64,000 nt of DNA from assembly GCF_040954835.1 (NCBI RefSeq), contig NC_090709.1, positions 42,540,490-42,604,489 of the forward strand. The letters are read 5' to 3'. The notes under the pieces are model-generated. The model worked only from the letters and a program-made list of their open reading frames with translations, searched no databases and was not told where the DNA came from. The stretch is from Lepisosteus oculatus. Its lineage: Eukaryota; Chordata; Actinopteri; Semionotiformes; Lepisosteidae. Positions 3,229-44,395 of this stretch are shown piece by piece. Position 1 is the first letter of the stretch; each line of letters begins with the position of its first letter. The position numbers and the translations under genes were made by a program.

Positions 3229-3605
3229 TCACGTCAACCCCTCGATCGAATCACCGCTGAAGCAGAAGAAGGGCAGCCTCTGATCGCAGCCGGTGCCGTT
3301 CCAGTACCCTGCCGAGCTGCCCGCCATCAACAGTGAAGCACAGTCCTCGTTTCCAGCAGCATTGTCAGGGACGCCGTCTGCCCAGTTGCGGAAAGCGGGG
3401 TTGCTCGGGCTCGACCACTTCCAGGGCTCCATGAACAGGCCGATCCAGACGTAGTTACCCCGCGCCGTCAGTCGGATCTCCTCGTTCTCGCTCTGGTTCC
3501 TCACGCTGGCCAGGTCCGTGTGGTGCTCCCGGCAGGACCTCTGGGCTGCGGTGAAGTTCTTGTTCGTTTCTATCAGGAAGTAGCTCCCTGCAGCGTCGCT
3601 GCCCT
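3229..3605 (-). CDS. Lectin gene exon 3: second C-type lectin-like domain and stop
   Basis: Acceptor gttttcacag leads in phase into EGSDAAGSYFLIETNKNF, then AQRSCREHHTDLASV, NYVWIGLFMEPWKW, WADGVPDNAAGNEDC, YWNGTGCDQRLPFFCF and a stop at 3229-3231. It is a complete domain, about 115 residues. The WND calcium motif of sugar-binding members is replaced by WNG. A 2-kb intron with a nested transposon separates it from exon 2. Confidence 0.85.
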
Positions 3606-12209: not shown

Positions 12210-13024
12210 TTAATTCTTCCAGCATAACAGATTGAGTCCCTGCTGCCTTCTCCTCCCGGGACATTTCCTCCTTCTGAAGGACCGCAGGCAGGTGACGCAT
12301 CGGCGGAAGAATTTCCAGATCGGGTTGCTCCCTTCCTCCGGGTCCCGAGACGGCGGCCCCCCCCGTCCAGGTTCGCCGGGGTTCTCTTCCTCGATGAGGG
12401 GGCGCCCGTCCGCGGCGGGGTCTTCTTCGCGTCTCCCGGGGCCCGTCCGCTGGGTGTAGTAGGCGCCCCCGTTCTCCCGCACCAGCCCCTCGATCTTGTC
12501 CAGCAGCTGGCTGACCTGCCGGTGGTCGCCGGCGTCCCGGTTGTTGAAGACGTGGTACCGGTTCCCGCAGGCCTCCAGCAGCGCCTTCAGCTCCGCCTGG
12601 GCCCCCCGCAGGAAGTCCTCGACGGGGGCCCCTCCCAGGTCGTCGCCGTAGGTGAACAGGACCACGGCGTGCCGGGTGACCCCGGGCCCGAAGGCCTGTT
12701 TCATCTGCCCCCCGATCCTCTTCTCCCCCTCGGTGAAGCGCCCCAGCTGCAGCACCAGCAGGAAGGCGTGGGGCCCCGGGGCCGACAGGGCCAGGCAGTC
12801 CCGGATGTGGGCCTGGCGATCGGGGAGACCTTCGTCGAAGAGGTCCGGGGTGTCGACGACGTGGAGCCGTCTCCCGCCGGCGCCGGCCGCGTGGGCGCTC
12901 CCGCACCGCGTCGTCACGGCAGTGGAGCTCAGCACCGAGGGGAACTCCGTCCTGCCCAGCAGGGTGTTCCCCGCCGAGCTCTTCCCCGTGCCCCGCCTGC
13001 CCAACAGCACCACCCGCAGGTGAG
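12210..13024 (-). CDS. GIMAP/AIG1-type GTPase, main exon
   Basis: About 271 codons encode one AIG1 domain. These GTPases act in lymphocyte survival and in immunity, usually at membranes. Visible GTP-binding motifs are G1 LLGRRGTGKSSAGNTLLG, the conserved-box region after it, G3 VVDTPDLFD (normally DTPG), a PGPHAFLLVLQLGRFTEGE segment typical of the family, and G4 as TYGDDL. The C-terminal tail is charged, then has FFRRCVTCLRSFRRRKC with several cysteines that might be lipidated; no transmembrane helix is evident. The acceptor gcgccag at 13031-13025 precedes HLRVVLLG, so the upstream ATG of the open frame (13052) is probably intronic and an upstream exon with the true start is missing or not recognised. 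The exon is much more GC-rich than its surroundings. No neighbouring GIMAP copy is in the window. Confidence 0.85.
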
Positions 13025-13081
13025 CTGGCGCAATTACAAAGAGGGAAAACAATGGAGACTTTGATTATTGTGTTCGTCCCT

Positions 13082-19460: not shown

Positions 19461-20267
19461 TTGCATTTTGTTCATCCGAGTATTTTCTTTTAAAGATCAA
19501 TTGTAACAGCTAAACGTGGTCAAATGCCGTTGTTTTGTGCATAACGCTAACTTCATTTTAAGTAAATGAAGAATCTTTGGAGTATTAAAAGGTAGAGGAA
19601 TTAAGGAACAGAAAAGGACATTTGACATCCTGAGGACAGTGTAGCTGGGGACAGAAGGACAGTGTCTCCTGAGGACAGTGTAACTGGGGACAGTAGCAGA
19701 AAAGGACAGTGTCTCCTGAGGACAGTGTAACTGGGGACAGAAGGACAGTGTCTCCTGATGACAGTATAACTGGGGACAGAAGGACAGTGTCCTCTGAGGA
19801 CAGTGCAACTGGGGACAGTAGCAGAAAAGGACAGTGTCTCCTGAAGACAGTGTAACTGGGGACAGAAGGACAGGGCCTCCTGAGGACAGCGTAACTGGGG
19901 ACAGTAGGACAGTGTCTTCTGAGGATAGTAGGCCAGAAGGACAGTGTAACTGGGGACAGAAGGACAGTGTCTCCTGCAGAAATTGCAGTGGAAAGTGATC
20001 GATTTCTCCTTTGCTGCATCTTTCTTACAGCTCCCCCATCCTGTGAACATTTGTGAGGTTCAGCGGTTAATCTCGGTCTCTTCACACGCTGCGGTTGGTA
20101 CCTTCCGACCACAGTTTCCAGCTCAGCTCCGCCACTCCTCCACGTGAATTTCACAATGCAACACATTAAACAGCATCAAAAAATGAAAAGATCACCTTCA
20201 CGTCTGAGGGCTGTAAGCCACAGTTTTAAGGATAGCTGGTAAGATAGACAGAGTGACAGACACACAG
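19461..20267. repeat. Satellite flank, copy 1 (807-bp duplicated block)
   Basis: This block recurs at 39,759-40,565 with a constant offset of 20,298 bp. I noticed only about eight differences (for example ttcatcc/atcatcc, cctgtga/actgtga) and no indels. It contains a ~40-bp minisatellite and then about 290 bp of unique sequence before the satellite begins. Confidence 0.92.
19625..19980. repeat. ~40-bp minisatellite inside the flank
   Basis: Repeats of ggacagtgtctcctgaggac followed by agtgtaactggggacagaag, some with an extra tagcagaaaa. About nine copies. The same array lies at 39,923-40,278. Confidence 0.88.
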
Positions 20268-23200
20268 TCTCACAGTAAAGTCTAGTGTGCAGGTCACAAT
20301 TACCCACACAGTCTCACAGTAAAGTCTAGTGTGCAGGTCAGAATTACCCACAGTCTCACAGTAAAGTCTAGTGTGCAGGTCAGAATTACCCACACAGTCT
20401 CACAGTAAAGTCTAGTGTGCAGGTCAGAATTCCCCACAGTCTCACAGTAAAGTCTAGTGTGCAGGTCAGAATTACCCACAGTCTCACAGTAAAGTCTAGT
20501 GTGCAGGTCAGAATTACCCACAGTCTCACAGTAAAGTCTAGTGTGCAGGTCAGAATTACCCACACAGTCTCACAGTAAAGTCTAGTGTGCAGGTCAGAAT
20601 TACCCACAGTCTCACAGTAAAGTCTAGTGTGCAGGTCAGAATTCCCCACAGTCTCACAGTAAACTCTAGTGTGCAGGTCAGAATTACCCACACAGTCTCA
20701 CAGTAAAGTCTAGTGTGCAGGCCAGAATTACCCACACAGTCTCACAGTAAAGTCTAGTGTGCAGGCCAGAATTACACACAGTCTCACAGTAAAGTCTAGT
20801 GTGCAGGCCAGAATTACACAGAGTCTCACTGTTAAGTCTAGTGTGCAGGTCACAATTACACACAGTCTCACTGTTAAGTCTAGTGTGCAGGTCAGAATTA
20901 CACACAGTCTCACAGTAAAGTCTAGTGTGCAGGTCAGAACTACACACAGTCTCACAGTAAAGTCTAGTGTGCAGGTCAGAATTACACACAGCCTCACAGT
21001 AAAGTCTAGTGTGCAGGTCAGAATTACACACAGCCTCACAGTAAAGTCTAGTGTGCAGGTCAGAATTACCCACACAGTCTCACAGTAAAGTCTAGTGTGC
21101 AGGTCAGAATTACCCACAGTCTCACAGTAAAGTCTAGTGTGCAGGTCAGAATTACACACAGCCTCACAGTAAAGTCTAGTGTGCAGGTCAGAATTACCCA
21201 CACAGTCTCACAGTAAAGTCTAGTGTGCAGGTCAGAATTCCCCACAGTCTCACAGTAAAGTCTAGTGTGCAGGTCAGAATTACACACAGTCTCACAGTAA
21301 AGTCTAGTGTGCAGGTCAGAATTACACACAGTCTCACTGTTAAGTCTAGTGTGCAGGTCAGAATTACACACAGTCTCACTGTTAAGTCTAGTGTGCAGGT
21401 CAGAATTACACACAGTCTCACTGTTAAGTCTAGTGTGCAGGTCAGAATTACACACAGTCTCACAGTGAAGTCTAGTGTGCAGGTCAGAATTACACACAGT
21501 CTCACAGTAAAGTCTAGTGTGCAGGTCAGAATTACACACAGCCTCATAGTAAAGTCTAGTGTGCAGGTCAGAATTACACACAGCCTCATAGTAAAGTCTA
21601 GTGTGCAGGTCACAATTACACACAGTCTCACAGTAAAGTCTAGTGTGCAGGTCAGAATCACACAGTCTCACAGTAAAGTCTAGTGTGCAGGTCAGAATCA
21701 CACACAGTCTCACAGTAAAGTCTAGTGTGCAGGCCAGAATTACCCACACAGTCTCACAGTAAAGTCTAGTGTGCAGGTCAGAATTACCCACAGTCTCACA
21801 GTAAAGTCTAGTGTGCAGGTCAGAATTACACACAGTCTCACAGTAAAGTCTAGTGTGCAGGTCAGAATTACCCACACAGTCTCACAGTAAAGTCTAGTGT
21901 GCAGGTCAGAATTACACACAGCCTCACAGTAAAGTCTAGTGTGCAGGTCAGAATTACCCACACAGTCTCACAGTAAAGTCTAGTGTGCAGGTCAGAATTA
22001 CACACAGCCTCACAGTAAAGTCTAGTGTACAGGTCAGAATTACCCACAGTCTCACAGTAAAGTCTAGTGTGCAGGCCAGAATTACCCACACAGTCTCACA
22101 GTAAAGTCTAGTGTGCAGGCCAGAATTCCCCACAGTCTCACAGTAAAGTCTAGTGTGCAGGCCAGAATTACCCACACAGTCTCACAGTAAAGTCTAGTGT
22201 GCAGGCCAGAATTCCCCACAGTCTCACAGTAAAGTCTAGTGTGCAGGTCAGAATTACACACAGTAAAGTCTAGTGTGCAGGTCAGAATTACCCACACAGT
22301 CTCACAGTAAAGTCTAGTGTGCAGGCCAGAATTACCCACACAGTCTCACAGTAAAGTCTAGTGTGCAGGTCAGAATTACCCACACAGTCTCACAGTAAAG
22401 TCTAGTGTGCAGGCCAGAATTACACACAGTCTCACTGTTAAGTCTAGTGTGCAGGTCAGAATTCCCCACAGTCTCACAGTAAAGTCTAGTGTGCAGGCCA
22501 GAATTACCCACACAGTCTCACAGTAAAGTCTAGTGTGCAGGTCAGAATTACCCACAGTCTCACAGTAAAGCCTAGTGTGCAGGTCAGAATTACCCACAGT
22601 CTCACAGTAAAGTATAGTGTGCAGGTCAGAATTACCCACACAGTCTCACAGTAAAGTCTAGTGTGCAGGTCAGAATTACTCACAGTAAAGTCTAGTGTGC
22701 AGGTCAGAATTACCCACAGTCTCACAGTAAGGTCTAGTGTTCAGGTCAGAATTACCCACAGTCTCACAGTAAAGTCTAGTGTGCAGGTCAGAATTACCCA
22801 CACAGTCTCACAGTAAAGTCTAGTGTGCAGGTCAGAATTACCCACACAGTCTCACAGTAAAGTCTAGTGTGCAGGTCAGAATTACCCACAGTCTCACAGT
22901 AAAGTCTAGTGTGCAGGTCAGAATTACCCACAGTCTCACAGTAAAGTCTAGTGTGCAGGTCAGAATTACCCACACAGCCTCACAGTAAAGTCTAGTGTGC
23001 AGGTCAGAATTACACACAGTTTCACAGTAAAGTCTAGTGTGCAGGTCAGAATTACCCACACAGTCTCACTGTAAAGTCTAGTGTGCAGGTCAGAATTACC
23101 CACAGTCTCACAGTAAAGTCTAGTGTGCAGGTCAGAATTACCCACAGTCTCACAGTAAATTATAGTGTGCAGGTCAGAATTACCCACACAGTCTCACAGT

Positions 23201-26200
23201 AAAGTCTAGTGTGCAGGTCAGAATTACTCACAGTAAAGTCTAGTGTGCAGGTCAGAATTACCCACAGTCTCACAGTAAGGTCTAGTGTTCAGGTCAGAAT
23301 TACCCACAGTCTCACAGTAAAGTCTAGTGTGCAGGTCAGAATTACCCACACAGTCTCACAGTAAAGTCTAGTGTGCAGGTCAGAATTACCCACACAGTCT
23401 CACAGTAAAGTCTAGTGTGCAGGCCAGAATTACACACAGTCTCACTGTTAAGTCTAGTGTGCAGGTCAGAATTACACACAGTCTCACTGTTAAGTCTAGT
23501 GTGCAGGTCAGAATTACACACAGTCTCACAGTAAAGTCTAGTGTGCAGGTCAGAATTACACACAGCCTCACAGTAAAGTCTAGTGTGCAGGTCACAATTC
23601 CCCACAGTCTCACAGTAAAGTCTAGTGTGCAGGCCAGAATTACCCACACAGTCTCACAGTAAAGTCTAGTGTGCAGGTCAGAATTACCCACAGTCTCACA
23701 GTAAAGCCTAGTGTGCAGGTCAGAATTACCCACAGTCTCACAGTAAAGTATAGTGTGCAGGTCAGAATTACCCACACAGTCTCACAGTAAAGTCTAGTGT
23801 GCAGGTCAGAATTACTCACAGTAAAGTCTAGTGTGCAGGTCAGAATTACCCACAGTCTCACAGTAAGGTCTAGTGTGCAGGTCAGAATTACACACAGCCT
23901 CATAGTAAAGTCTAGTGTGCAGGTCAGAATTACACACAGCCTCATAGTAAAGTCTAGTGTGCAGGTCACAATTACACACAGTCTCACAGTAAAGTCTAGT
24001 GTGCAGGTCAGAATCACACAGTCTCACAGTAAAGTCTAGTGTGCAGGTCAGAATCACACACAGTCTCACAGTAAAGTCTAGTGTGCAGGCCAGAATTACC
24101 CACACAGTCTCACAGTAAAGTCTAGTGTGCAGGTCAGAATTACCCACAGTCTCACAGTAAAGTCTAGTGTGCAGGTCAGAATTACACACAGTCTCACAGT
24201 AAAGTCTAGTGTGCAGGCCAGAATTACCCACACAGTCTCACAGTAAAGTCTAGTGTGCAGGCCAGAATTCCCCACAGTCTCACAGTAAAGTCTAGTGTGC
24301 AGGTCAGAATTACACACAGTAAAGTCTAGTGTGCAGGTCAGAATTACCCACACAGTCTCACAGTAAAGTCTAGTGTGCAGGCCAGAATTACCCACACAGT
24401 CTCACAGTAAAGTCTAGTGTGCAGGTCAGAATTACCCACACAGTCTCACAGTAAAGTCTAGTGTGCAGGCCAGAATTACACACAGTCTCACTGTTAAGTC
24501 TAGTGTGCAGGTCAGAATTACACACAGTCTCACTGTTAAGTCTAGTGTGCAGGTCAGAATTCCCCACAGTCTCACAGTAAAGTCTAGTGTGCAGGCCAGA
24601 ATTACCCACACAGTCTCACAGTAAAGTCTAGTGTGCAGGTCAGAATTACCCACAGTCTCACAGTAAAGCCTAGTGTGCAGGTCAGAATTACCCACAGTCT
24701 CACAGTAAAGTATAGTGTGCAGGTCAGAATTACCCACACAGTCTCACAGTAAAGTCTAGTGTGCAGGTCAGAATTACCCACACAGTCTCACAGTAAAGTC
24801 TAGTGTGCAGGTCAGAATTACCCACAGTCTCACAGTAAAGTCTAGTGTGCAGGTCAGAATTACCCACAGTCTCACAGTAAAGTCTAGTGTGCAGGTCAGA
24901 ATTACCCACACAGCCTCACAGTAAAGTCTAGTGTGCAGGTCAGAATTACACACAGTTTCACAGTAAAGTCTAGTGTGCAGGTCAGAATTACCCACACAGT
25001 CTCACTGTAAAGTCTAGTGTGCAGGTCAGAATTACCCACAGTCTCACAGTAAAGTCTAGTGTGCAGGTCAGAATTACCCACAGTCTCACAGTAAATTATA
25101 GTGTGCAGGTCAGAATTACCCACACAGTCTCACAGTAAAGTCTAGTGTGCAGGTCAGAATTACTCACAGTAAAGTCTAGTGTGCAGGTCAGAATTACCCA
25201 CAGTCTCACAGTAAGGTCTAGTGTTCAGGTCAGAATTACCCACAGTCTCACAGTAAAGTCTAGTGTGCAGGTCAGAATTACCCACACAGTCTCACAGTAA
25301 AGTCTAGTGTGCAGGTCAGAATTACCCACACAGTCTCACAGTAAAGTCTAGTGTGCAGGCCAGAATTACACACAGTCTCACTGTTAAGTCTAGTGTGCAG
25401 GTCAGAATTACACACAGTCTCACTGTTAAGTCTAGTGTGCAGGTCAGAATTACACACAGTCTCACAGTAAAGTCTAGTGTGCAGGTCAGAATTACCCACA
25501 CAGTCTCACAGTAAAGTCTAGTGTGCAGGCCAGAATTACACACAGTCTCACTGTTAAGTCTAGTGTGCAGGTCAGAATTACACACAGTCTCACTGTTAAG
25601 TCTAGTGTGCAGGTCAGAATTCCCCACAGTCTCACAGTAAAGTCTAGTGTGCAGGCCAGAATTACCCACACAGTCTCACAGTAAAGTCTAGTGTGCAGGT
25701 CAGAATTACCCACAGTCTCACAGTAAAGCCTAGTGTGCAGGTCAGAATTACCCACAGTCTCACAGTAAAGTATAGTGTGCAGGTCAGAATTACCCACACA
25801 GTCTCACAGTAAAGTCTAGTGTGCAGGTCAGAATTACTCACAGTAAAGTCTAGTGTGCAGGTCAGAATTACCCACAGTCTCACAGTAAGGTCTAGTGTTC
25901 AGGTCAGAATTACCCACAGTCTCACAGTAAAGTCTAGTGTGCAGGTCAGAATTACCCACACAGTCTCACAGTAAAGTCTAGTGTGCAGGTCAGAATTACC
26001 CACACAGTCTCACAGTAAAGTCTAGTGTGCAGGTCAGAATTACCCACAGTCTCACAGTAAAGTCTAGTGTGCAGGTCAGAATTACCCACAGTCTCACAGT
26101 AAAGTCTAGTGTGCAGGTCAGAATTACCCACACAGCCTCACAGTAAAGTCTAGTGTGCAGGTCAGAATTACACACAGTTTCACAGTAAAGTCTAGTGTGC

Positions 26201-29200
26201 AGGTCAGAATTACCCACACAGTCTCACTGTAAAGTCTAGTGTGCAGGTCAGAATTACCCACAGTCTCACAGTAAATTATAGTGTGCAGGTCAGAATTACC
26301 CACACAGTCTCACAGTAAAGTCTAGTGTGCAGGTCAGAATTACTCACAGTAAAGTCTAGTGTGCAGGTCAGAATTACCCACAGTCTCACAGTAAGGTCTA
26401 GTGTTCAGGTCAGAATTACCCACAGTCTCACAGTAAAGTCTAGTGTGCAGGTCAGAATTACCCACACAGTCTCACAGTAAAGTCTAGTGTGCAGGTCAGA
26501 ATTACCCACACAGTCTCACAGTAAAGTCTAGTGTGCAGGCCAGAATTACACACAGTCTCACTGGTAAGTCTAGTGTGCAGGTCAGAATTACACACAGTCT
26601 CACTGTTAAGTCTAGTGTGCAGGTCAGAATTACACACAGTCTCACAGTAAAGTCTAGTGTGCAGGTCAGAATTACACACAGCCTCACAGTAAAGTCTAGT
26701 GTGCAGGTCACAATTCCCCACAGTCTCACAGTAAAGTCTAGTGTGCAGGCCAGAATTACCCACACAGTCTCACAGTAAAGTCTAGTGTGCAGGTCAGAAT
26801 TACCCACAGTCTCACAGTAAAGCCTAGTGTGCAGGTCAGAATTACCCACAGTCTCACAGTAAAGTATAGTGTGCAGGTCAGAATTACCCACACAGTCTCA
26901 CAGTAAAGTCTAGTGTGCAGGTCAGAATTACTCACAGTAAAGTCTAGTGTGCAGGTCAGAATTACCCACAGTCTCACAGTAAGGTCTAGTGTGCAGGTCA
27001 GAATTACACACAGCCTCATAGTAAAGTCTAGTGTGCAGGTCAGAATTACACACAGCCTCATAGTAAAGTCTAGTGTGCAGGTCACAATTACACACAGTCT
27101 CACAGTAAAGTCTAGTGTGCAGGTCAGAATCACACAGTCTCACAGTAAAGTCTAGTGTGCAGGTCAGAATCACACACAGTCTCACAGTAAAGTCTAGTGT
27201 GCAGGCCAGAATTACCCACACAGTCTCACAGTAAAGTCTAGTGTGCAGGTCAGAATTACCCACAGTCTCACAGTAAAGTCTAGTGTGCAGGTCAGAATTA
27301 CACACAGTCTCACAGTAAAGTCTAGTGTGCAGGCCAGAATTACCCACACAGTCTCACAGTAAAGTCTAGTGTGCAGGCCAGAATTCCCCACAGTCTCACA
27401 GTAAAGTCTAGTGTGCAGGTCAGAATTACACACAGTAAAGTCTAGTGTGCAGGTCAGAATTACCCACACAGTCTCACAGTAAAGTCTAGTGTGCAGGCCA
27501 GAATTACCCACACAGTCTCACAGTAAAGTCTAGTGTGCAGGTCAGAATTACCCACACAGTCTCACAGTAAAGTCTAGTGTGCAGGCCAGAATTACACACA
27601 GTCTCACTGTTAAGTCTAGTGTGCAGGTCAGAATTACACACAGTCTCACTGTTAAGTCTAGTGTGCAGGTCAGAATTCCCCACAGTCTCACAGTAAAGTC
27701 TAGTGTGCAGGCCAGAATTACCCACACAGTCTCACAGTAAAGTCTAGTGTGCAGGTCAGAATTACCCACAGTCTCACAGTAAAGCCTAGTGTGCAGGTCA
27801 GAATTACCCACAGTCTCACAGTAAAGTATAGTGTGCAGGTCAGAATTACCCACACAGTCTCACAGTAAAGTCTAGTGTGCAGGTCAGAATTACTCACAGT
27901 AAAGTCTAGTGTGCAGGTCAGAATTACCCACAGTCTCACAGTAAGGTCTAGTGTTCAGGTCAGAATTACCCACAGTCTCACAGTAAAGTCTAGTGTGCAG
28001 GTCAGAATTACCCACACAGTCTCACAGTAAAGTCTAGTGTGCAGGTCAGAATTACCCACACAGTCTCACAGTAAAGTCTAGTGTGCAGGTCAGAATTACC
28101 CACAGTCTCACAGTAAAGTCTAGTGTGCAGGTCAGAATTACCCACAGTCTCACAGTAAAGTCTAGTGTGCAGGTCAGAATTACCCACACAGCCTCACAGT
28201 AAAGTCTAGTGTGCAGGTCAGAATTACACACAGTTTCACAGTAAAGTCTAGTGTGCAGGTCAGAATTACCCACACAGTCTCACTGTAAAGTCTAGTGTGC
28301 AGGTCAGAATTACCCACAGTCTCACAGTAAAGTCTAGTGTGCAGGTCAGAATTACCCACAGTCTCACAGTAAATTATAGTGTGCAGGTCAGAATTACCCA
28401 CACAGTCTCACAGTAAAGTCTAGTGTGCAGGTCAGAATTACTCACAGTAAAGTCTAGTGTGCAGGTCAGAATTACCCACAGTCTCACAGTAAGGTCTAGT
28501 GTTCAGGTCAGAATTACCCACAGTCTCACAGTAAAGTCTAGTGTGCAGGTCAGAATTACCCACACAGTCTCACAGTAAAGTCTAGTGTGCAGGTCAGAAT
28601 TACCCACACAGTCTCACAGTAAAGTCTAGTGTGCAGGCCAGAATTACACACAGTCTCACTGTTAAGTCTAGTGTGCAGGTCAGAATTACACACAGTCTCA
28701 CTGTTAAGTCTAGTGTGCAGGTCAGAATTACACACAGTCTCACAGTAAAGTCTAGTGTGCAGGTCAGAATTACACACAGCCTCACAGTAAAGTCTAGTGT
28801 GCAGGTCACAATTCCCCACAGTCTCACAGTAAAGTCTAGTGTGCAGGCCAGAATTACCCACACAGTCTCACAGTAAAGTCTAGTGTGCAGGTCAGAATTA
28901 CCCACAGTCTCACAGTAAAGCCTAGTGTGCAGGTCAGAATTACCCACAGTCTCACAGTAAAGTATAGTGTGCAGGTCAGAATTACCCACACAGTCTCACA
29001 GTAAAGTCTAGTGTGCAGGTCAGAATTACTCACAGTAAAGTCTAGTGTGCAGGTCAGAATTACCCACAGTCTCACAGTAAGGTCTAGTGTTCAGGTCAGA
29101 ATTACCCACAGTCTCACAGTAAAGTCTAGTGTGCAGGTCAGAATTACCCACACAGTCTCACAGTAAAGTCTAGTGTGCAGGTCAGAATTACCCACACAGT

Positions 29201-32200
29201 CTCACAGTAAAGTCTAGTGTGCAGGTCAGAATTACCCACAGTCTCACAGTAAAGTCTAGTGTGCAGGTCAGAATTACCCACAGTCTCACAGTAAAGTCTA
29301 GTGTGCAGGTCAGAATTACCCACACAGTCTCACAGTAAAGTCTAGTGTGCAGGCCAGAATTACCCACACAGTCTCACAGTAAAGTCTAATGTGCAGGCCA
29401 GAATTACCCACAGTCTCACAGTAAAGTCTAGTGTGCAGGTCAGAATTCCCCACGGTCTCACAGTAAAGTCTAGTGTGCAGGTCAGAATTACCCACAGTCT
29501 CACAGTAAAGTCTAGTGTGCAGGCCAGAATTACCCACACAGTCTCACAGTAAAGTCTAGTGTGCAGGTCAGAATTACCCACACAGTCTCACAGTAAAGTC
29601 TAGTGTGCAGGCCAGAATTACACACAGTCTCACTGTTAAGTCTAGTGTGCAGGTCAGAATTACACACAGTCTCACTGTTAAGTCTAGTGTGCAGGTCAGA
29701 ATTACACACAGTCTCACAGTAAAGTCTAGTGTGCAGGTCAGAATTACACACAGCCTCACAGTAAAGTCTAGTGTGCAGGTCAGAATTCCCCACAGTCTCA
29801 CAGTAAAGTCTAGTGTGCAGGCCAGAATTACCCACACAGTCTCACAGTAAAGTCTAGTGTGCAGGTCAGAATTACCCACAGTCTCACAGTAAAGTCTAGT
29901 GTGCAGGTCAGAATTCCCCACAGTCTCACAGTAAAATATAGTGTGCAGGTCAGAATTACCCACAGTCTCACAGTAAAGTCTAGTGTGCAGGTCAGAATTA
30001 CCCACACAGTCTCACAGTAAAGTCTAGTGTGCAGGTCAGAATTACACAGTCTCACAGTAAAGTGTAGTGTGCAGGTCAGAATTCCCCACAGTCTCACATT
30101 AAAGTCTAGTGTGCAGGTCAGAATTACACACAGCCTCACAGTAAAGTCTAGTGTGCAGGTCAGAATTACACACAGCCTCATAGTAAAGTCTAGTGTGCAG
30201 GTCAGAATTCCCCCCAGTCTCACAGTAAAGTCTAGTGTGCAGGTCAGAATCACACAGTCTCACTGTAAAGTCTAGTGTGCAGGTCAGAATCACACACAGT
30301 CTCACAGTAAAGTCTGGTGTGCAGGCCAGAATTACCCACACAGTCTCACAGTAAAGTCTAGTGTGCAGGTCAGAATTACCCACACAGTCTCACAGTAAAG
30401 CCTAGTGTGCAGGTCAGAATTACACAGTCTCAGAGTAAAGTCTAGTGTGCAGGTCAGAATTACACACAGTCTCACAGTAAAGTCTAGTGTGCAGGTCAGA
30501 ATCACACACAGTCTCACAGTAAAGTCTAGTGTGCAGGTCAGAATTACCCACACAGTCTCACAGTAAAGTCTAGTGTGCAGGTCAGAATTACACACAGCCT
30601 CACAGTAAAGTCTAGTGTGCAGGTCAGAATTACCCACACAGTCTCACAGTAAAGTCTAGTGTGCAGGTCAGAATTCCCCACAGTCTCACAGTAAAGTCTA
30701 GTGTGCAGGCCAGAATTACCCACAGTCTCACAGTAAAGTCTAGTGTGCAGGTCAGAATTACCCACACAGTCTCACAGTAAAGTCTAGTGTGCAGGTCAGA
30801 ATTACCCACACAGTCTCACTGTTAAGTCTAGTGTGCAGGTCACAATTACACACAGTCTCACTGTTAAGTCTAGTGTGCAGGTCAGAATTACACACAGTCT
30901 CACAGTAAAGTCTAGTGTGCAGGTCAGAATCACACAGTCTCACTGTAAAGTCTAGTGTGCAGGCCAGAATTACCCACACAGTCTCACAGTAATGTCTAGT
31001 GTGCAGGTCAGAATTACCCACAGTCTCACAGTAAAGTCTAGTGTGCAGGTCAAAATTACCCACAGTCTCATAGTAAAGTCTAGAGTGCAGGTCAGAATTA
31101 CCCACACAGTCTCACACTAAAGTCTAGTGTGCAGGTCAGAATTACCCACAGTCTCACAGTAAAGTCTAGTGTGCAGGTCAGAATTCCCCACAGTCTCACA
31201 GTAAAGTCTAGTGTGCAGGTCAGAATTACACACAGTCTCACAGTAAAGTATAGTGTGCAGGTCAGAATTACCCACACAGTCTCACAGTAAAGTCTAGTGT
31301 GCAGGTCAGAATTACCCACAGTCTCACAGTAAAGTCTAGTGTGCAGGTCAGAATTACCCACACAGTCTCACAGTAAAGTCTAGTGTGCAGGTCAGAATTA
31401 CCCACAGTCTCACAGTAAAGTCTAGTGTGCAGGCCAGAATTACCCACAGTCTCACAGTAAAGTCTAGCGTGCAGGTCAGAATTACCCACAGTCTCACAGT
31501 AAAGTCTAGTGTGCAGGTCAGAATTACACACAGTCTCACAGTAAAGTCTAGTGTGCAGGTCAGAATTACACACAGTCTCACAGTAAAGTCTAGTGTGCAG
31601 GTCAGAATTACCCACAGTCTCACAGTAAAGTCAAGTGTGCAGGCCAGAATTACCCACAGTCTCACAGTAAAGTCTAGTGTGCAGGTCAGAATTACACACA
31701 GTCTCACAGTAAAGTCTAGCGTGCAGGTCAGAATCCCCCACAGTCTCACAGTAAAGTCTAGTGTGCAGGTCAGAATTACACACAGTAAAGTCTAGTGGTC
31801 AGGTCGGAATTGCCCACACAGCCTCACAGCAAAGTCTAGTGTGCAGGTCAGAATTACACACAGTAAAGTCTAGTGGTCAGGTCGGAATTGCCCACACAGC
31901 CTCACAGCAAAGTCTAGTGTGCAGGTCAGAATTACACACAGCCTCACAGTAATGTCTAGTGTGCAGGTCAGAATTACCCACACAGTCTCACAGTAAAGTC
32001 TAGTGTGCAGGTCAGAATTACCCACAGTGAAGTCTAGTGTGCAGGTCAGAATTACCCACAGTCTCACAGTAAAGTCTAGTGTGCAGGTCAGAATTACCCA
32101 CAGTGAAGTCTAGTGTGCAGGTCAGAATTACCCACAGTCTCACAGTAAAGTCTAGTGTGCAGGTCAGAATTACACACAGTAAAGTCTAGTGGTCAGGTCG

Positions 32201-35200
32201 GAATTGCCCACACAGCCTCACAGCAAAGTCTAGTGTGCAGGTCAGAATTAGCCACACAGTCTCACAGTAAAGTCTAGTGTGCAGGTTAGAATCACCCACA
32301 CAGTCTCACAGTAAAGTCTTGTGTGCAGGTCAGAATTACACACACGGTATCACAGTAAAGTCTAGTGTGCAGGTCAGAATTACCCACAGTCTCACAGTAA
32401 AGTCTATTGTGCAGGTCAGAATTACCCACAGTCTCACAGTAAAGTCTAGTGTGCAGGTTAGAATCACCCACACAGTCTCACAGTAAAGTCTTGTGTGCAG
32501 GTCAGAATTACACACACAGTCTCACAGTAAAGTCTAGTGTGCAGGTCAGAATTACCCACAGTCTCACAGTAAAGCCTAGTGTGCAGGTCAGAATTACACA
32601 CACAGTCTCACAGTAAAGTGTAGTGTGCAGGTCAGAATTACCCACAGTCTCACAGTAAAGTCGAGTGTGCAGGTCAGAATTACCCACAGCCTCACAGTAA
32701 AGTCTAGTGTGCAGGTCAGAATTACCCACAGTGAAGTCTAGTGTGCAGGTCAGAATTACCCACAGTGAAGTCTAGTGTGCAGGTCAGAATTACCCACAGT
32801 CTCACAGTAAAGTCTAGTGTGCAGGTCAGAATTACACACAGTAAAGTCTAGTGGTCAGGTCGGAATTGCCCACACAGCCTCACAGCAAAGTCTAGTGTGC
32901 AGGTCAGAATTACCCACACAGTCTCACAGTAAAGTCTAGTGTGCAGGTCAGAATTAGCCACACAGTCTCACAGTAAAGTCTAGTGTGCAGGTTAGAATCA
33001 CCCACACAGTCTCACAGTAAAGTCTTGTGTGCAGGTCAGAATTACACACACGGTATCACAGTAAAGTCTAGTGTGCAGGTCAGAATTACCCACAGTCTCA
33101 CAGTAAAGCCTAGTGTGCAGGTCAGAATTACCCACAGTCTCACAGTAAAGTCTAGTGTGCAGGTCAGAATTACCCACAGTCTCACAGTAAAGTCTATTGT
33201 GCAGGTCAGAATTACCCACAGTCTCACAGTAAAGTCTAGTGTGCAGTTCAGAATTACCCACAGCCTCACAGTAAAGTCTAGTGTGCAGGTCAGAATTACA
33301 CTCAGCCTCACAGTAAAGTCTAGTGTGCAGGTCAGAATTACCCACAGCCTCACAGTAAAGTCTAGTGTGCAGGTCAGAATTACACACAGCCTCACAGTAA
33401 AGTCTAGTGTGCAGGTCAGAATTACACACAGCCTCACAGTAAAGTCTAGTGTGCAGGTCAGAATTACCCACACAGTCTCACAGTAAAGTCTAGTGTGCAG
33501 GTCAGAATTACCCACACAGTCTCACAGTAAAGTCTAGTGTGCAGGTCAGAATTACCCACAGTCTCACAGTAAAGTCTAGTGTGCAGGCCAGAATTACCCA
33601 CACAGTCTCACAGTAAAGTCTAGTGTGCAGGTCAGAATTACACACAGTCTCACAGTAAAGTCTAGTGTGCAGGTCAGAATTACCCACAGTCTCACAGTAA
33701 AGTCTAGTGTGCAGGTCAGAATTACACACAGTAAAGTCTAGTGGTCAGGTCGGAATTGCCCACACAGCCTCACAGCAAAGTCTAGTGTGCAGGTCAGAAT
33801 TACACACAGTAAAGTCTAGTGGTCAGGTCGGAATTGCCCACACAGCCTCACAGCAAAGTCTAGTGTGCAGGTCAGAATTACACACAGCCTCACAGTAATG
33901 TCTAGTGTGCAGGTCAGAATTACCCACACAGTCTCACAGTAAAGTCTAGTGTGCAGGTCAGAATTACACACAGTAAAGTCTAGTGTTTAGGTCGGAATTA
34001 CCCACAGTGAAGTCTAGTGTGCAGGTCAGAATTACCCACAGTCTCACAGTAAAGTCTAGTGTGCAGGTCAGAATTACCCACAGTGAAGTCTAGTGTGCAG
34101 GTCAGAATTACCCACAGTCTCACAGTAAAGTCTAGTGTGCAGGTCAGAATTACACACAGTAAAGTCTAGTGGTCAGGTCGGAATTGCCCACACAGCCTCA
34201 CAGCAAAGTCTAGTGTGCAGGTCAGAATTAGCCACACAGTCTCACAGTAAAGTCTAGTGTGCAGGTTAGAATCACCCACACAGTCTCACAGTAAAGTCTT
34301 GTGTGCAGGTCAGAATTACACACACGGTATCACAGTAAAGTCTAGTGTGCAGGTCAGAATTACCCACAGTCTCACAGTAAAGTCTAGTGTGCAGGTCAGA
34401 ATTACCCACAGTCTCACAGTAAAGTCTATTGTGCAGGTCAGAATTACCCACAGTCTCACAGTAAAGTCTAGTGTGCAGGTCAGAATTACCCACAGCCTCA
34501 CAGTAAAGTCTAGTGTGCAGGTCAGAATTACACTCAGCCTCACAGTAAAGTCTAGTGTGCAGGTCAGAATTACACACAGCCTCACAGTAAAGTCTATTGT
34601 GCAGGTCAGAATTACCCACAGTCTCACAGTAAAGTCTAGTGTGCAGGTCAGAATTACACACAGTCTCACAGTAAAGTCTAGTGTGCAGGTCAGAATTACC
34701 CACAGTCTCACAGTAAAGTCTAGTGTGCAGGTCAGAATTACCCACACAGTCTCACAGTAAAGTCTAGTGTGCAGGTCAGAATTACCCACAGTCTCACAGT
34801 AAAGTCTAGTGTGCAGGTCAGAATTACCCACACAGTCTCACAGTAAAGTCTAGTGTGGAGGTCAGAATTACACACAGCCTCACAGTAAAGTCTAGTGTGC
34901 AGGTCAGAATTACCCACACAGTCTCACAGTAAAGTCTAGTGTGCAGGTCAGAATTACACACAGCCTCACAGTAAAGTCTAGTGTACAGGTCAGAATTACA
35001 CACAGCCTCACAGTAAAGTCTAGTGTGCAGGCCAGAATTACCCACACAGTCTCACAGTAAAGTCTAGTGTACAGGTCAGAATTCCCCACAGTCTCACAGT
35101 AAAGTCTAGTGTGCAGGCCAGAATTACCCACACAGTCTCACAGTAAAGTCTAGTGTGCAGGTCAGAATTACCCACACAGTCTTACAGTAAAGTCTAGTGT

Positions 35201-38200
35201 GCAGGTCAGAATTACACACAGCCTCACAGTAAAGTCTAGTGTGCAGGTCAGAATTACACACAGCCTCACAGTAAAGTCTAGTGTGCAGGTCAGAATTACA
35301 CACAGCCTCACAGTAAAGTCTAGTGTGCAGGTCAGAATTACCCACACAGTCTCACAGTAAAGTCTAGTGTGCAGGTCAGAATTACCCACACAGTCTCACA
35401 GTAAAGTCTAGTGTGCAGGTCAGAATTACCCACACAGTCTCACAGTAAAGTCTAGTGTGCAGGTCAGAATTACCCACACAGTCTCACAGTAAAGTCTAGT
35501 GTGCAGGTCAGAATTACCCACACAGTCTCACAGTAAAGTCTAGTGTGCAGGTAAGAATTACCCACAGTCTCACAGTAAAGTCTAGTGTACAGGTCAGAAT
35601 TAGCCACACAGTCTCACAGTAAAGTCCAGTGTTCAGGTCAGAATAACACACAGTAAAGTCTAGTGTGCAGGTCAGAATTAGCCACACAGTCTCACAGTAA
35701 AGTCTAGTGTTCAGGTCAGAATTACCCACACAGTCTCACAGTAAAGTCAAGTGTGCAGGCCAGAATTACCCACAGTCTCACAGTAAAGTCTAGCGTGCAG
35801 GTCAGAATCACACACAGTCTCACAGTAAAGTCTAGCGTGCAGGCCAGAATTACACACAGTAAAGTCTAGTGTTCAGGTCGGAATTACCCACAGTGAAGTC
35901 TAGTGTGCAGGTCAGAATTACCCACAGTCTCACAGTAAAGTCTAGTGTGCAGGTCAGAATTACCCACAGTGAAGTCTAGTGTGCAGGTCAGAATTACCCA
36001 CAGTCTCACAGTAAAGTCTAGTGTGCAGGTCAGAATTACCCACAGTCTCACAGTAAAGTCTACTGTTCAGGTCAGAATTAGCCACACAGTCTCACAGTAA
36101 AGTCTAGTGTGCAGGTCAGAATTACCCACAGTCTCACAGTAAAGTCTAGTGTGCAGGTCAGAATTACCCACACAGTCTCACAGTAAAGTCTAGTGTGCAG
36201 GTCAGAATTACCCACAGTCTCACAGTAAAGTCTAGCGTGCAGGCCAGAATTACCCACAGTCTCACAGTAAAGTCTAGCGTGCAGGCCAGAATTACCCACA
36301 GTCTCACAGTAAAGTCTAGCGTGCAGGCCAGAATTACCCACAGTCTCACAGTAAAGTCTAGTTTGCAGGTCAGAATTACCCACACGGTCTCACAGTAAAG
36401 TCTTGTGTGCTGGTCAGAATTACCCACACAGTCTCACAGTAAAGTCTAGTGTGCAGGTCAGAATTACCCACAGTCTCACAGTAAAGTCTAGCGTGCAGGC
36501 CAGAATTACCCACAGTCTCACAGTAAAGTCTAGCGTGCAGGCCAGAATTACCCACAGTCTCACAGTAAAGTCTAGCGTGCAGGCCAGAATTACCCACAGT
36601 CTCACAGTAAAGTCTAGTTTGCAGGTCAGAATTACCCACACGGTCTCACAGTAAAGTCTTGTGTGCTGGTCAGAATTACCCACACAGTCTCACAGTAAAG
36701 TCTAGTGTGCAGGTCAGAATTACCCACACAGTCTCACAGTAAAGTCTAGTGTGCAGGTCAGAATTACACACAGTAAAGTCTAGTGTTCAGGTCGGAATTA
36801 CCCACAGTGAAGTCTAGTGTGCAGGTCAGAATTACCCACAGTCTCACAGTAAAGTCTAGTGTGCAGGTCAGAATTACCCACAGTGAAGTCTAGTGTGCAG
36901 GTCAGAATTACCCACAGTCTCACAGTAAAGTCTAGTGTGCAGGTCAGAATTACCCACAGTCTCACAGTAAAGTCTACTGTTCAGGTCAGAATTAGCCACA
37001 CAGTCTCACAGTAAAGTCTAGTGTGCAGGTCAGAACTACACACAGTCTCACAGTAAAGTCTTGCGTGCAGGCCAGAATTACCCACAGTCTCACAGTAAAG
37101 TCTAGTGTGTAGGTCAGAATTACACACAGTCTCCCAGTAAAGTCTAGTGTGCAGGTCAGAATTAAACACAGTCTCACAGTAAAGTCTAGCGTGCAGGTCA
37201 GAATTACCCACACAGTCTCACAGTAAAGTCTAGTGTACAGGTCAGAATTACCCACAGTCTCACAGTAAAGTCTTGCGTGCAGGCCAGAATTACCCACAGT
37301 CTCACAGTAAAGTCTAGTGTGTAGGTCAGAATTACACACAGTCTCCCAGTAAAGTCTAGTGTGCAGGTCAGAATTAAACACAGTCTCACAGTAAAGTCTA
37401 GCGTGCAGGCCAGAATTACCCACAGTCTCACAGTAAAGTCTAGTGTGTAGGTCAGAATTACACACAGTCTCACAGTAAGGTCTAGTGTGCAGGTCAGAAT
37501 CCCCCACAGTCTCTCAGTAAAATCTAGCGTGCAGGTCGGAATTGCCCACACAGCCTCACAGTAAAGTCTAGTGTGCAGGTCAGAATTACCCACAGTCTCA
37601 CAGTAAAGTCTACTGTTCAGGTCAGAATTAGCCACACAGTCTCACAGTAAAGTCTAGTGTGCAGGTCAGAACTACACACAGTCTCACAGTAAAGTCTAGT
37701 GTGCAGGCCAGAATTACCCACACAGTCTCACAGTAAAGTCTTGCGTGCAGGCCAGAATTACCCACAGTCTCACAGTAAAGTCTAGTGTGTAGGTCAGAAT
37801 TACACACAGTCTCACAGTAAAGTCTAGTGTGCAGGTCAGAATTAAACACAGTCTCACAGTAAAGTCTAGCGTGCAGGTCAGAATCCCCCACAGTCTCACA
37901 GTAAAATCTAGCGTGCAGGTCAGAATCACCCACACAGTCTCACAGTAAAGTCTAGTGTGCAGGTCAGAACCACCCACACAGTCTCACAGTAAAGTCTAGT
38001 GTGCAGGTCAGAATTACCGACACAGTCTCACAGTAAAGTCTAGTGTGCAGGTCAGAATTACCCACACAGTCTCACAGTAAAGTCTAGTGTGTAGGTCAGA
38101 ATTACCCACAGTCTCACAGTAAAGTCTAGTGTGCAGGTCAGAATTACACACAGTAAAGTCTAGTGTTCAGGTCGGAATTACCCACACAGTCTCACAGTAA

Positions 38201-39757
38201 AGTCTAGTGTTCAGGTCAGAATTACACACAGTCTCACAGTAAAGTCTAGTGTGCAGGTCAGAATTAAACACAGTCTCACAGTAATGTCTAGTGTTCAGGT
38301 CAGAATTACACACAGTCTCACAGTAATGTCTAGTGTGCAGGTCAGAATTACACACAGCCTCACAGTAAAGTCTAGTGTGCAGGTCAGAATTACACACAGT
38401 TTCACAGTAAAGTCTAGTGTGCAGGTAAGAATTACCCACACAGTCTCACAGTAAAATCTAGCGTGCAGGTCAGAATCACCCACACAGTCTCAAAGTAAAG
38501 TCTAGTGTGCAGGTCAGAATCACCCACACAGTCTCACAGTAAAGTCTAGTGTGCAGGTCAGAATCACCCACACAGTCTCACAGTAAAGTCTAGTGTTCAG
38601 GTCAGAATTACCCACAGTCTCACAGTAAAGTCTAGTGTGCAGGTCAGAATTACACACAGTAAAGTCTAGTGTTCAGGTCAGAATTGCCCACACAGCCTCA
38701 CAGTAAATTCTAGTGTGCAGGTCAGAATTACCCACAGTCTCACAGTAAAGTCTAGTGTTCAGGTCAGAATTACCCACAGTCTCACAGTTAAGTCTAGTGT
38801 GCAGGTCAGAATTACCCACAGTCTCACAGTTAAGTCTCGTGTGCAGGTCAGAATTACCAACACAGTCTCTCAGTAAAGTCTAGTGTGCAGGTCAGAACTA
38901 CCCACACAGTCTCACAGTCAAGTCTAGTGTGCAGGTCAGAATTACCCACAGTCTCACAGTAAAGTCTAGTGCTCAGGTCAGAATTACCCACACAGTCTCA
39001 CAGTAAAGTCTAGTGTGCAGGTCAGAATCACACACTGTAAAGTCTAGTGTTCAGGTCGGAATTGCCCACACAGCCTCACAGTAAAGTCTAGTGTGCAGGT
39101 CAGAATTACCCACAGTCTCACAGTAAAGTCTAGTGTTCAGGTCGTATTAGCCACACAGTCTCACAGTAAAGTCTAGTGTTCGTCTAGTGTTCGGGTCAGA
39201 ATTAGCCACACAGTCTCACAGTAAAGTCTAGTGTTCAGGTCAGAATTAGCCACAGTCTCACAGTCAAGTCTAGTGTGCAGGTCAGAATTACCCACAGTCT
39301 CACAGTAAAGTCTAGTGTGCAGGTCAGAATTACCCACACAGTCTCACAGTAAAGTCTAGTGTGCAGGTCAGAATTACCCACAGTCTCACAGTAAAGTCTA
39401 GTGTGCAGGCCAGAATTACCCACAGTCTCACAGTAAAGTCTAGTGTGCAGGCCAGAATTACCCACACAGTCTCACAGTAAAGTCTAGTGTGCAGGTAAGA
39501 ACTACACACAGTCTCACAGTAAAGTCTAGTGTGCAGGTCAGAATTACCCACAGTCTCACAGTCAAGTCTAGTGTGCAGGTCAGAATTACCCACAGTCTCA
39601 CAGTAAAGTCTAGTGTGCAGGTCAGAATTACCCACAGTCTAACAGTAAAGTCTAGTGTGCAGGTCAGAATTACCCACACAGTCTCACAGTAAAGTCTAGT
39701 GTGCAGGTCAGAATTACCCACAGTCTCACAGTAAAGTCTAGAGTGCAGGTCAGAATT
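20268..39757. repeat. 42/44-bp satellite array, block 1 (~19.5 kb)
   Basis: Head-to-tail monomers read cagtctcacagtaaagtcta then gtgtgcaggtcagaattacc, closing with ca (42 bp) or caca (44 bp). From length and period I estimate roughly 450 copies. Typical variants are attaca/attacc, cagcctc for cagtctc, ctgttaag for cagtaaag, and gcaggcc for gcaggtc. Shortened monomers lacking tctcacag recur (ttactcacagtaaag, acccacagtgaag, ttacacacagtaaag). Identical variant strings repeat in long blocks, showing higher-order structure. Because 42 is a multiple of 3, both strands show long open frames; these are not genes. No transposon insertion was seen inside. Confidence 0.97.
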
Positions 39758-39758
39758 T

Positions 39759-40565
39759 TTGCATTTTGATCATCCGAGTATTTTCTTTTAAAGATCAATT
39801 GTAACAGCTAAACGTGGTCAAATGCCGTTGTTTTGTGCATAACGCTAACTTCATTTTAAGTAAATGAAGAATCTTTGGAGTATTAAAAGGTAGAGGAATT
39901 AAGGAACAGAAAAGGACATTTGACATCCTGAGGACAGTGTAGCTGGGGACAGAAGGACAGTGTCTCCTGAGGACAATGTAACTGGGGACAGTAGCAGAAA
40001 AGGACAGTGTCTCCTGAGGACAGTGTAACTGGGGACAGAAGGACAGTGTCTCCTGATGACAGTATAACTGGGGACAGAAGGACAGTGTCCTCTGAGGACA
40101 GTGCAACTGGGGACAGTAGCAGAAAAGGACAGTGTCTCCTGAAGACAGTGTAACTGGGGACAGAAGGACAGGGTCTCCTGAGGACAGCCTAACTGGGGAC
40201 AGTAGGACAGTGTCTTCTGAGGATAGTAGGCCAGAAGGACAGTGTAACTGGGGACAGAAGGACAGTGTCTCCTGCAGAAATTGCAGTGGAAAGTGATCGA
40301 TTTCTCCTTTGCTGCATCTTTCTTACAGCTCCCCCATACTGTGAACATTTGTGAGGTTCAGCGGTTAATCTCGGTCTCTTCACACGCTGCGGTTGGTACC
40401 TTCCGACCACAGTTTCCAGCTCAGCTCCGCCACTCCTCCACGTGAATTTCACAATGCAACACATTAAACAGCATCAAAAAATGAAAAGATCACCTTCACG
40501 TCTGAGGGCTGTAAGCCAATGTTTTAAGGATAGCTGGTAAGATAGACAGAGTGACAGACACACAG
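39759..40565. repeat. Satellite flank, copy 2
   Basis: Near-identical to 19,461-20,267. It begins directly after a monomer cut at cagaatt and leads into the second satellite block. Confidence 0.92.
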
Positions 40566-43228
40566 GAAACACAAAGTCTCACAGTAAAAACTAGTGTGCA
40601 GGTCAGAATTACCCACACAGTCTCACAGTAAAGTCTAGTGTGCAGGTCAGAATTACCCACACAGTCTCACAGTAAAGTCTAGTGTGCAGGTCAGAATTAC
40701 CCACACAGTCTCACAGTAAAGTCTAGTGTGCAGGTCAGAATTACCCACACAATCTCACAGTAAAGTCTAGTGTGCAGGTCAGAATTACCCACACAGTCTC
40801 ACAGTAAAGTCTAGTGTGCAGGTCAGAATTACACACAGTCTCACTGTAAAGTCTAGTGTGCAGGTCAGAATCACACACAGGCTCACAGTGAAGTCTATTG
40901 TGCAGGTCAGAATCACACACAGGCTCACAGTGAAGTCTAGTGTGCAGGCCAGAATTACCCACACAGTCTCACAGTAAAGTCTAGTGTGCAGGTCAGAATT
41001 ACCCACACAGTCTCACAGTAAAGTCTAGTGTGCAGGTCAGAATTACCCACACAGTCTCACAGTAAAGTCTAGTGTGCAGGTCAGAATTACCCACACAGTC
41101 TCACAGTAAAGTCTAGTGTGCAGGTCAGAATTACCCACAGTCTCACAGTAAAGTCTATTGTGCAGGTCAGAATCACACACAGGCTCACAGTGAAGTCTAG
41201 TGTGCAGGTCAGAATTACCCACAGCCTCACAGTAAAGTCTAGTGTGCAGGTCAGAATTACCCACAGTCTCACAGTAAAGTCTAGTGTGCAGGTCAGAATT
41301 ACCCACACAGTCTCACAGTAAAGTCTAGTGTGCAGGTCAGAATTACACACAGTCTCACTGTAAAGTCTAGTGTGCAGGTCAGAATCACACACAGGCTCAC
41401 AGTGAAGTCTAGTGTGCAGGTCAGAATCACACACAGGCTCACAGTAAAGTCTAGTGTGCAGGTCAGAATTACACAGTCTCACAGTAAAGTCTAGTGTGGC
41501 GGTCAGAATTACACACAGTCTCACAGTAAAGTCTAGTGTGCAGGTCAGAATTACCCACAGCCTCACAGTAAAGTCTAGTGTGCAGGTCAGAATTACCCAC
41601 ACAATCTCACAGTAAAGTCTAGTGTGCAGGTCAGAATTACCCACACAGTCTCACAGTAAAGTCTAGTGTGCAGGTCAGAATTACCCACAGTCTCACAGTA
41701 AAGTCTAGTGTGCAGGTCAGAATTACACACACAATCTCACAGTAAAGTCTAGTGTGCAGGTCAGAATTACCCACAGTCTCACAGTAAAGTCTAGTGTGCA
41801 GGTCAGAATTACCCACAGTGAAGTCTAGTGTGCAGGTCAGAATTACCCACAGTCTCACAGTAAAGTCTAGTGTGCAGGTCAGAATTACACACAGTAAAGT
41901 CTAGTGGTCAGGTCGGAATTGCCCACACAGCCTCACAGCAAAGTCTAGTGTGCAGGTCAGAATTAGCCACACAGTCTCACAGTAAAGTCTAGTGTGCAGG
42001 TTAGAATCACCCACACAGTCTCACAGTAAAGTCTAGTGTGCAGGTCAGAATTACCCACACAGTCTCACAGTAAAGTCTAGTGTGCAGGTCAGAATTACAC
42101 ACACAGTCTCACAGTAAAATCTAGCGTGCAGGTCAGAATCACCCACACAGTCTCACAGTAAAGTCTAGTGTGCAGGTCAGAATTACCCACACAGTCTCAC
42201 AGTAAAGTCTAGTGTTCAGGTCAGAATTACCCACAGTCTCACAGTAAAGTCTAGCGTGCAGGTCAGAATCACACACAGTCTCACTGTAAAGTCTAGTGTG
42301 CAGGTCAGAATTACCCACAGTCTCACAGTAAAGTCTAGTGTGCAGGTCAGAATTACCCACAGTCTCACAGTAAAGTCTAGTGTGCAGGCCAGAATTACCC
42401 ACACAGTCTCACAGTAAAGTCTAGTGTGCAGGTCAGAATTACCCACACAGTCTCACAGTAAAGTCTAGTGTGCAGGCCAGAATTACACACAGTCTCACTG
42501 TTAAGTCTAGTGTGCAGGTCAGAATTACACACAGTCTCACTGTTAAGTCTAGTGTGCAGGTCAGAATTACACACAGTCTCACAGTAAAGTCTAGTGTGCA
42601 GGTCAGAATTACACACAGCCTCACAGTAAAGTCTAGTGTGCAGGTCAGAATTCCCCACAGTCTCACAGTCAAGTCTAGTGTGCAGGTCAGAATTACCCAC
42701 ACAGTCTCACAGTAAAGTCTAGTGTGCAGGTTCAGAATTCCCCACAGTCTCACAGTAAAGTCTAGTGTGCAGGTCAGAATTACCCACAGTCTCACAGTAA
42801 AGTCTAGTGTGCAGGTCAGAATTACACACAGTCTCACAGTAAAGTCTAGTGTGCAGGTCAGAATTACACAGTCTCACAGTAAAGTCTAGTGTGCAGGTCA
42901 GAATTACCCACACAGTCTCACAGTAAAGTCTAGTGTGCAGGTCAGAATTACACAGTCTCACAGTAAAGTCTAGTGTGCAGGTCAGAATTACCCACAGTCT
43001 CACAGTAAAGTCTAGTGTGCAGGTCAGAATTACACACAGTCTCACAGTAAAGTCTAGTGTGCAGGTCAGAATTACACAGTCTCACAGTAAAGTCTAGTGT
43101 GCAGGTCAGAATTACCCACAGTCTCACAGTAAGGTCTAGTGTTCAGGTCAGAATTACCCACAGTCTCACAGTAAAGTCTAGTGTGCAGGTCAGAATTACC
43201 CACAGTCTCACAGTAAAGTCTAGTGTGC
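40566..43228. repeat. 42/44-bp satellite array, block 2 (~2.7 kb)
   Basis: The same monomer as block 1, about 60 copies by length. Near the start are variants with caggctcacagtgaag that I did not notice in block 1. It ends abruptly at gtgtgcatgctctg. Confidence 0.96.
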
Positions 43229-43677
43229 ATGCTCTGTAACGGTGCGGGTGTTCCCCTTGCACCTAACACTCAGCGTCAACGTGGCTCGACATCATATCCT
43301 CCCGCGTAGCTGGAGAGGATTTTAATTCTTCTCCCGTGAACAGCGAACGTTAAAACTTCAAGGAAGAGAAGAAGAGAAGAAAAAAAAACACATTCTCTAG
43401 TTGACAGGGAAGGAAACTCTGCGCCTGAGCTAGAAGAGGCGTTGGCGTATTTCTGAGCCCCACGCCCAGGCAGCTGCGGGAGTATTTACTGAATTAGCGG
43501 CACCGGTGGTGCTCACGAAATGAGACGCATTCTCGCGCGGATATCGGAGGTGGAGAGAGACAGAGGGCTGCATGTGCTGGTTCTGGGCTGCCCTCTAGTG
43601 GGGATCAGCGGTATCGCAGGACGACAAGTACATTTTGTGAAGCGAAGTTTCTCTGCTCCGTCACGCCTCACCTGACT
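43229..43677. other. No recognised gene
   Basis: Unique-looking sequence after the satellite with several CpG sites (43,500-43,560). No open frame with a recognised motif. Confidence 0.4.
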
Positions 43678-43803
43678 GATAAGATCAGATCACTTTATTG
43701 GCCCTGTACAGTTTCTTGCATGAGGAATTTGTCTTGTCGCAGACCCCAGCTTGCTCTCCGTGAGACACACAGACCGGGAGAGAGAGAGAAACTGGGGGTC
43801 AGA
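43678..43803 (-). mobile_element. tRNA-derived SINE fragment, minus strand
   Basis: The plus strand has gataagatcagatcacttta, gtcgcagaccccagcttgct and gagagagagaaactgggggt, matching the tail half of the family at 15.3 kb. The tRNA-like head is replaced by the minisatellite that follows. Confidence 0.75.
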
Positions 43804-44395
43804 CCGGACCTGAACCACAGGACCAGTTGTCATCCTGGTCTAATAAGACTGGACCTGAACCACAGGACCAGCTGTTCTCCTGGTCTAACAAGACTGGACC
43901 TGAACCATTAAACCAGCTGTCCTCCTGATCTAACAAGACTGGACCTTAACCACTGGACCAGCTGTCTTCCTGGTCTAACAAGACTGGAGCTGAACCACTG
44001 GACCAGCTGTTCTCCTGGTGTAGAGAGACTGGAAATGAACCCTTGACCAGCTGTCTTCCTGGTCTAACAAGACTGGACCTGAACCACTGGACCAGCTGTC
44101 CTCCTGGTGTAAAGAGACTGGACCTGAACCACTGGACCAGCTGTCCTCCTGGTCTAAGAAGACTGGAGCTGAACCACTGGACCAGCTGTCCTCCTGGTCT
44201 AACAAAACTGGACCTGAACCACTGGACCAGCTGTCCTCCTGGTGTAAAGAGACTGGACCTGAACCACTGGACCAGCTGTCCTCCTGGTCTAACAAGACTG
44301 GACCTTAACCACTGGACCAGCTGTCCTCCTGGTCTAACAAGACTGGACCTGAACCACTGGACCAGCTGTTCACCAGTTCTTTCCAGGCTCAGACT
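43804..44395. repeat. 45-bp minisatellite, about 13 copies
   Basis: Repeats of gactggacctgaaccactgg and accagctgtcctcctggtct ending aacaa. The 45-bp period keeps frame, so open frames with QLVQWFRSSL-type repeats occur on both strands and are artefacts. Confidence 0.93.

Follow-up and report, generated by a model that had tools for sequence, protein, structure and literature searches.

A 42/44-bp minisatellite within a segmental duplication on contig C14 that probably lengthened to about 22 kb at one of its five loci

A minisatellite with 9-10 copies of a 42/44-bp unit, carried within a segmental duplication that is present five times on contig C14 of the Lepisosteus oculatus assembly, probably grew to about 22 kb at one of the five loci through unequal exchange or template switching. 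This locus lies in the window, the stretch of 64,000 nucleotides analysed here (C14:42540490-42604489), which was compared with the 813 contigs (1.2 Gb) of the genome. The 807-bp flank of the array would have been copied by one rearrangement; the simplest is a tandem duplication, whether through unequal sister-chromatid exchange or through a template switch during replication. The first of the two arrays would then have kept growing through block duplications of about 0.3-1.7 kb, and this later growth may have blurred the original register between the two. The whole structure is read from one assembly, and the register is too weak to place the right-hand limit of the duplicated unit.

In the window, TRF detects a repeat with periods of 42, 86 and 128 bp at about 20261-43229, interrupted by a second flank. 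The first flank copy, F1 (19461-20267, forward strand), encloses a 39-bp minisatellite at 19628-19929. The second, F2 (39759-40565, forward strand), is a copy of F1 at an offset of exactly 20,298 bp, without indels and with seven mismatches in 807 bp (F1 positions 19471, 19678, 19876, 19891, 20040, 20221 and 20222). The exact offset and the gapless 807-bp flanks claimed in the initial annotation are thus confirmed, with seven mismatches in place of the "about eight" noticed there. Since 800 of the 807 positions are identical, a chance origin of the likeness is excluded. When followed base by base, the match starts at 19460/39758; the similarity ends on both sides, and identity at the same offset is 21-34 in the 100-bp steps lying wholly outside F1 and F2. 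Each flank is followed by a block of the same repeat, and the sizes of 19.5 and 2.7 kb given earlier agree with TRF and BLAST. Array 1 occupies 20263-39758 (forward strand; about 453 monomers, taken as length/43) and array 2 occupies 40566-43229 (forward strand; about 62 monomers by the same division). The units are arranged head-to-tail with spacings mostly of 42 or 44 bp, which lie within the 10-100-bp unit size of a minisatellite or VNTR.

A genome search with the flank (seven candidates, all scored) returned 11 rows, ten of which represent six flank copies, while the remaining one matches query positions 1-164 on C12. The six copies are F1, F2 and one each, in two pieces, at four other loci on C14, near 14.44, 18.75, 27.44 and 29.61 Mb. 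A 401-bp query taken from array 2 (six of seven candidates scored) found 16 places, namely 15 at five loci on C14 and one on C26 (183 bp, 70% identity). This search lists no place in array 1 despite 440 alignments of at least 380 bp there; it misses long arrays, and the absence of the repeat elsewhere is therefore not established by it. With window positions 47885-49478 as a further query (40 of 3,086 candidates scored), these five C14 loci again matched over the full length, and the other 44 matches listed are partial and 68-81% identical.

The four sister loci were read over 20 kb each, and for two of them the stretch was lengthened to 90 and 80 kb. Within the stretch read, each has a single flank followed by an array of 394, 394, 394 or 438 bp, corresponding to 9, 9, 9 and 10 monomers (one array, scored as eight by script, was counted as nine because one 88-bp spacing holds two). 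Between the same borders, the window spans 22,969 bp and the sisters 449, 449, 449 and 493 bp, so that the length difference between paralogues is seen at all four loci. The initial expectation of more copies elsewhere holds, in a form that was not foreseen, for the flank, which occurs at four more places; these places are all on C14, and each has one flank and a short array of 9-10 monomers. The homology is much wider than the repeat: window positions 10481-63503 can be aligned with the 27.4-Mb sister in 16 blocks (85-97% identity), and the loci at 27.4 and 14.4 Mb have about 43 kb in common in five blocks (98.1-99.6%). A bounded transposon with internal repeats was rejected, as the sister homology extends far past the arrays and its ends differ between pairs (window/27.4 Mb and 27.4/14.4 Mb); a segmental duplication fits better.

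The segment also carries open frames. A GIMAP/AIG1-like frame on the minus strand of the window (12213-13064; PF04548, 189 bits at 12447-13019) is seen at all five C14 loci. It is open in the window, and in four of four sister copies residues 54-231 match in a different frame from the rest. A 987-aa open frame at 56927-59890 (minus strand) encodes a C2H2 zinc-finger array; zinc-finger reading frames are present at the 27.4-Mb locus as well, with Pfam support in the window only. Two C-type lectin-like open frames lie on the minus strand, one at 5406-6029 that matches Lectin_C and one at 3232-3639 that was assigned by appearance only. In the genome, where 150 of 291 candidates were scored, about 100 GIMAP/AIG1 domains were counted by hand on C14, most of them at 35-37.4 Mb (C14:35.05-37.43 Mb), and about 38 on C12. 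These domains look strongly amplified, as far as the matches indicate; the model also matches in 12 of 14 control genomes, in seven of them above the cut-off.

The sister loci make it possible to judge which borders at the window locus are original. F1 keeps the original left context, and F2 keeps the original border between flank and array: the left border shared by the sister loci includes 11 bp that are retained next to F2 and absent from the border of F1 with its array, and the first monomer after F2 has further changes. At the right end, roughly 55-60 bp of border sequence found at the sister loci (judged by eye) are missing at 43229, which leaves the right border of array 2 shorter than theirs. 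At both ends, left at F1 and right at 43229, the window lacks border sequence that the four sister loci have in common, so that its array borders look derived. Between array 1 and F2 lies the new junction (39757-39758, forward strand), where a monomer is broken after ...GTCAGAATT and the flank follows from 19460. No bases are shared directly at the join; a match of three bases, AAT, occurs just before it, one mismatch away. Compared with the four sister loci, the window therefore has a single new junction and its original outer contexts, with the right outer border shortened, as is expected of a tandem duplication.

A recent tandem duplication of flank and array together had been proposed initially. 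For the flank this is still the simplest reading, with one new junction near 39758, but the part that concerns the array is not clearly visible. When the start of array 2 was compared with positions of array 1, the start of array 1 (20268) ranked 40th of 455 over 400 bp, 31st of 443 over 900 bp, 18th of 422 over 1,800 bp and 72nd of 406 over 2,500 bp. It is thus above average, in the better 4-18% of places, and outscored by 17 to 71 others; a single BLAST alignment, at 93.6%, nevertheless covers the flank together with the beginning of the array. At most a weak trace of register is thus left between the two arrays, and growth continued after the flank duplication. Since other places in array 1 match the start of array 2 better than position 20268 does, duplication of the array along with the flank is plausible, though not clearly visible today, and the weak register does not fix how far the duplicated unit extends to the right. 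It is possible but unlikely that gene conversion or template switching placed F2 within an array that was already there. Such an insertion would account for the presence of array on both sides of F2 and for the weak register with array 1. However, the right border and first monomer next to F2 are its natural ones, so that a tandem duplication needs one new junction only, and the above-average rank of the array 1 start also argues against an insertion.

The divergence between copies suggests an order of events. F1 and F2 differ by 0.87%; the sisters differ from F1 by 2.2-2.8%, from F2 by 2.9-3.4% and among themselves by 0-0.5%. The youngest blocks of array 1 differ by 0-0.06%. The longest exact internal copies lie at 22415-29327 (forward strand), where 1,462 bp are identical and 1,665 bp are repeated with one mismatch; long exact copies are scarce in the last part of array 1, beyond about 38 kb. 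The block search selects the most alike blocks and so dates the latest growth only. On these values, the split from the sisters (2.2-3.4%) would have come first, followed by the flank duplication (0.87%) and then by the youngest blocks of array 1, and growth of the array appears to have continued after the flank was duplicated. Comparison with the sisters gives a direction to four of the seven differences between F1 and F2, each time with the change on F2; two of these are adjacent, and the resulting number of about three events is too small to conclude from.

The same divergence bears on the possibility of an assembly or haplotype artefact, in which F1 with array 1 and F2 with array 2 would be the two alleles of a heterozygous VNTR (lengths near 19.5 and 2.7 kb) placed one after the other. 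A difference of 0.87% lies within the ordinary heterozygosity of fish, many long reads are about as long as array 1, and the weak register between the arrays would also agree with two alleles. However, assembly joining by overlap needs a read that contains the adjacency, and here the join lies between unlike sequences with nothing shared directly at it; nor does the window contain any N. We consider such an artefact improbable. It is about as improbable that the long array is ancestral and that the four sister copies descend from a version that contracted before they spread: the GIMAP-like frame, open in the window and split between two frames in the sisters, may mark the window as older, and 42- and 44-bp spacings are both present in the sister arrays, but these arrays retain border sequence on both sides that is partly lost in the window, and much of array 1 is of very recent origin. 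Growth from a short array within the segmental duplication is accordingly the direction preferred here.

This growth may have been triggered by the sequence context at 42.58 Mb and not by the repeat as such, as in a position-dependent birth of satellites, but we regard this as doubtful. The array is about fifty times longer than its sisters, and unrelated minisatellites are dense around it. TRF arrays make up 34.5% of 124 kb around the window (near 20%, by arithmetic, without the 22-kb array). In the 90 kb read at 27.4 Mb they make up 5.2%, and in the 80 kb at 14.4 Mb, which include 5,000 N, 4.0%; the three stretches share homology only in part. The 39-bp minisatellite measures 302 bp in the window and 84-116 bp at the sisters. 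Against a position effect, the 45-bp minisatellite (43801-44369, forward strand), which lies 571 bp from the array, has the same length as at the sisters (569 vs 568-613 bp), and the 64-bp minisatellite nearly so (277 vs 235 bp). The zinc-finger coding repeats measure 843, 373 and 1,489 bp in the window and 862, 373 and 985 bp at the sisters, and a 3-bp repeat measures 46 bp in the window against 255 bp at three loci. An expansion shared by every local repeat was rejected: of the four comparable noncoding minisatellites, two (44 and 39 bp) are longer and two (45 and 64 bp) similar, and with the 3-bp repeat shorter, a general regional effect is not shown.

Kinship of the 42/44-bp repeat with its neighbours was unconvincing for each of the four units compared. 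Shuffled sequences reached the observed score in 194 of 300 cases for the 39-bp unit, 78 of 300 for a 42-bp unit to the left, 30 of 300 for a 62-bp unit and 11 of 300 for the 45-bp unit, the nearest of the four. The 45-bp minisatellite belongs to a large family in the genome (2,752 candidates, 40 scored); among the matches listed, besides C14 and one place on C1, it occurs within about 6 Mb of contig ends on C4, C7, C18 and C30. To the left of the window lies a 42-bp minisatellite of 3.5 kb (L032:4356-7868, window -5644 to -2132), which holds exact internal copies of 500 bp at offsets of 1992, 1078 and 914; recent block duplication is thus seen in that repeat as well.

An unusual single-strand fold of the 42/44-bp repeat was not found (z -0.06 to -0.89 in four tests), and instability driven by folding was rejected on this ground. 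A coding repeat was also rejected, as 44 is no multiple of 3 and the alternation of 42- and 44-bp units keeps no reading frame. Fold and frame thus gave no sign of function for the array, and we infer that its growth would reflect neutral repeat turnover.

Short tandem arrays that are carried in dispersed elements and occasionally expand have been described for plant satellites derived from retrotransposons (Vondrak et al. 2019, PMC7004042). As there, the window repeat is short at several dispersed places and long at one, with an internal block structure. The carriers there are plant LTR retrotransposons and expansion is mainly in primary constrictions, whereas the window array is carried by a segmental duplication on a single contig. 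Human VNTR or minisatellite loci (PMC7608644) likewise have units above 15 bp and lengths that differ greatly between copies. Their subtelomeric enrichment is given for GC above 60%, in contrast to the window array, whose GC is about 45% and whose distance to the nearer end of the 60.0-Mb contig is 17 Mb. Expansion of a short array at one of several related places is the pattern known from the retrotransposon-derived satellites of the plant, and the window is another case with a different carrier.

The understanding of how such arrays grow is unchanged by the window locus. Its value lies in a satellite-length array that stands beside short sister arrays in one genome. The flank duplication marks a point in time, and segment copying, flank duplication and latest block growth can thus be put in order from the window and its sisters. 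If the position-dependent reading were true, the five paralogous minisatellite copies on C14 would constitute a natural experiment on the birth of satellites. As it stands, the locus appears to be a clear, if ordinary, example of a satellite array that is forming.
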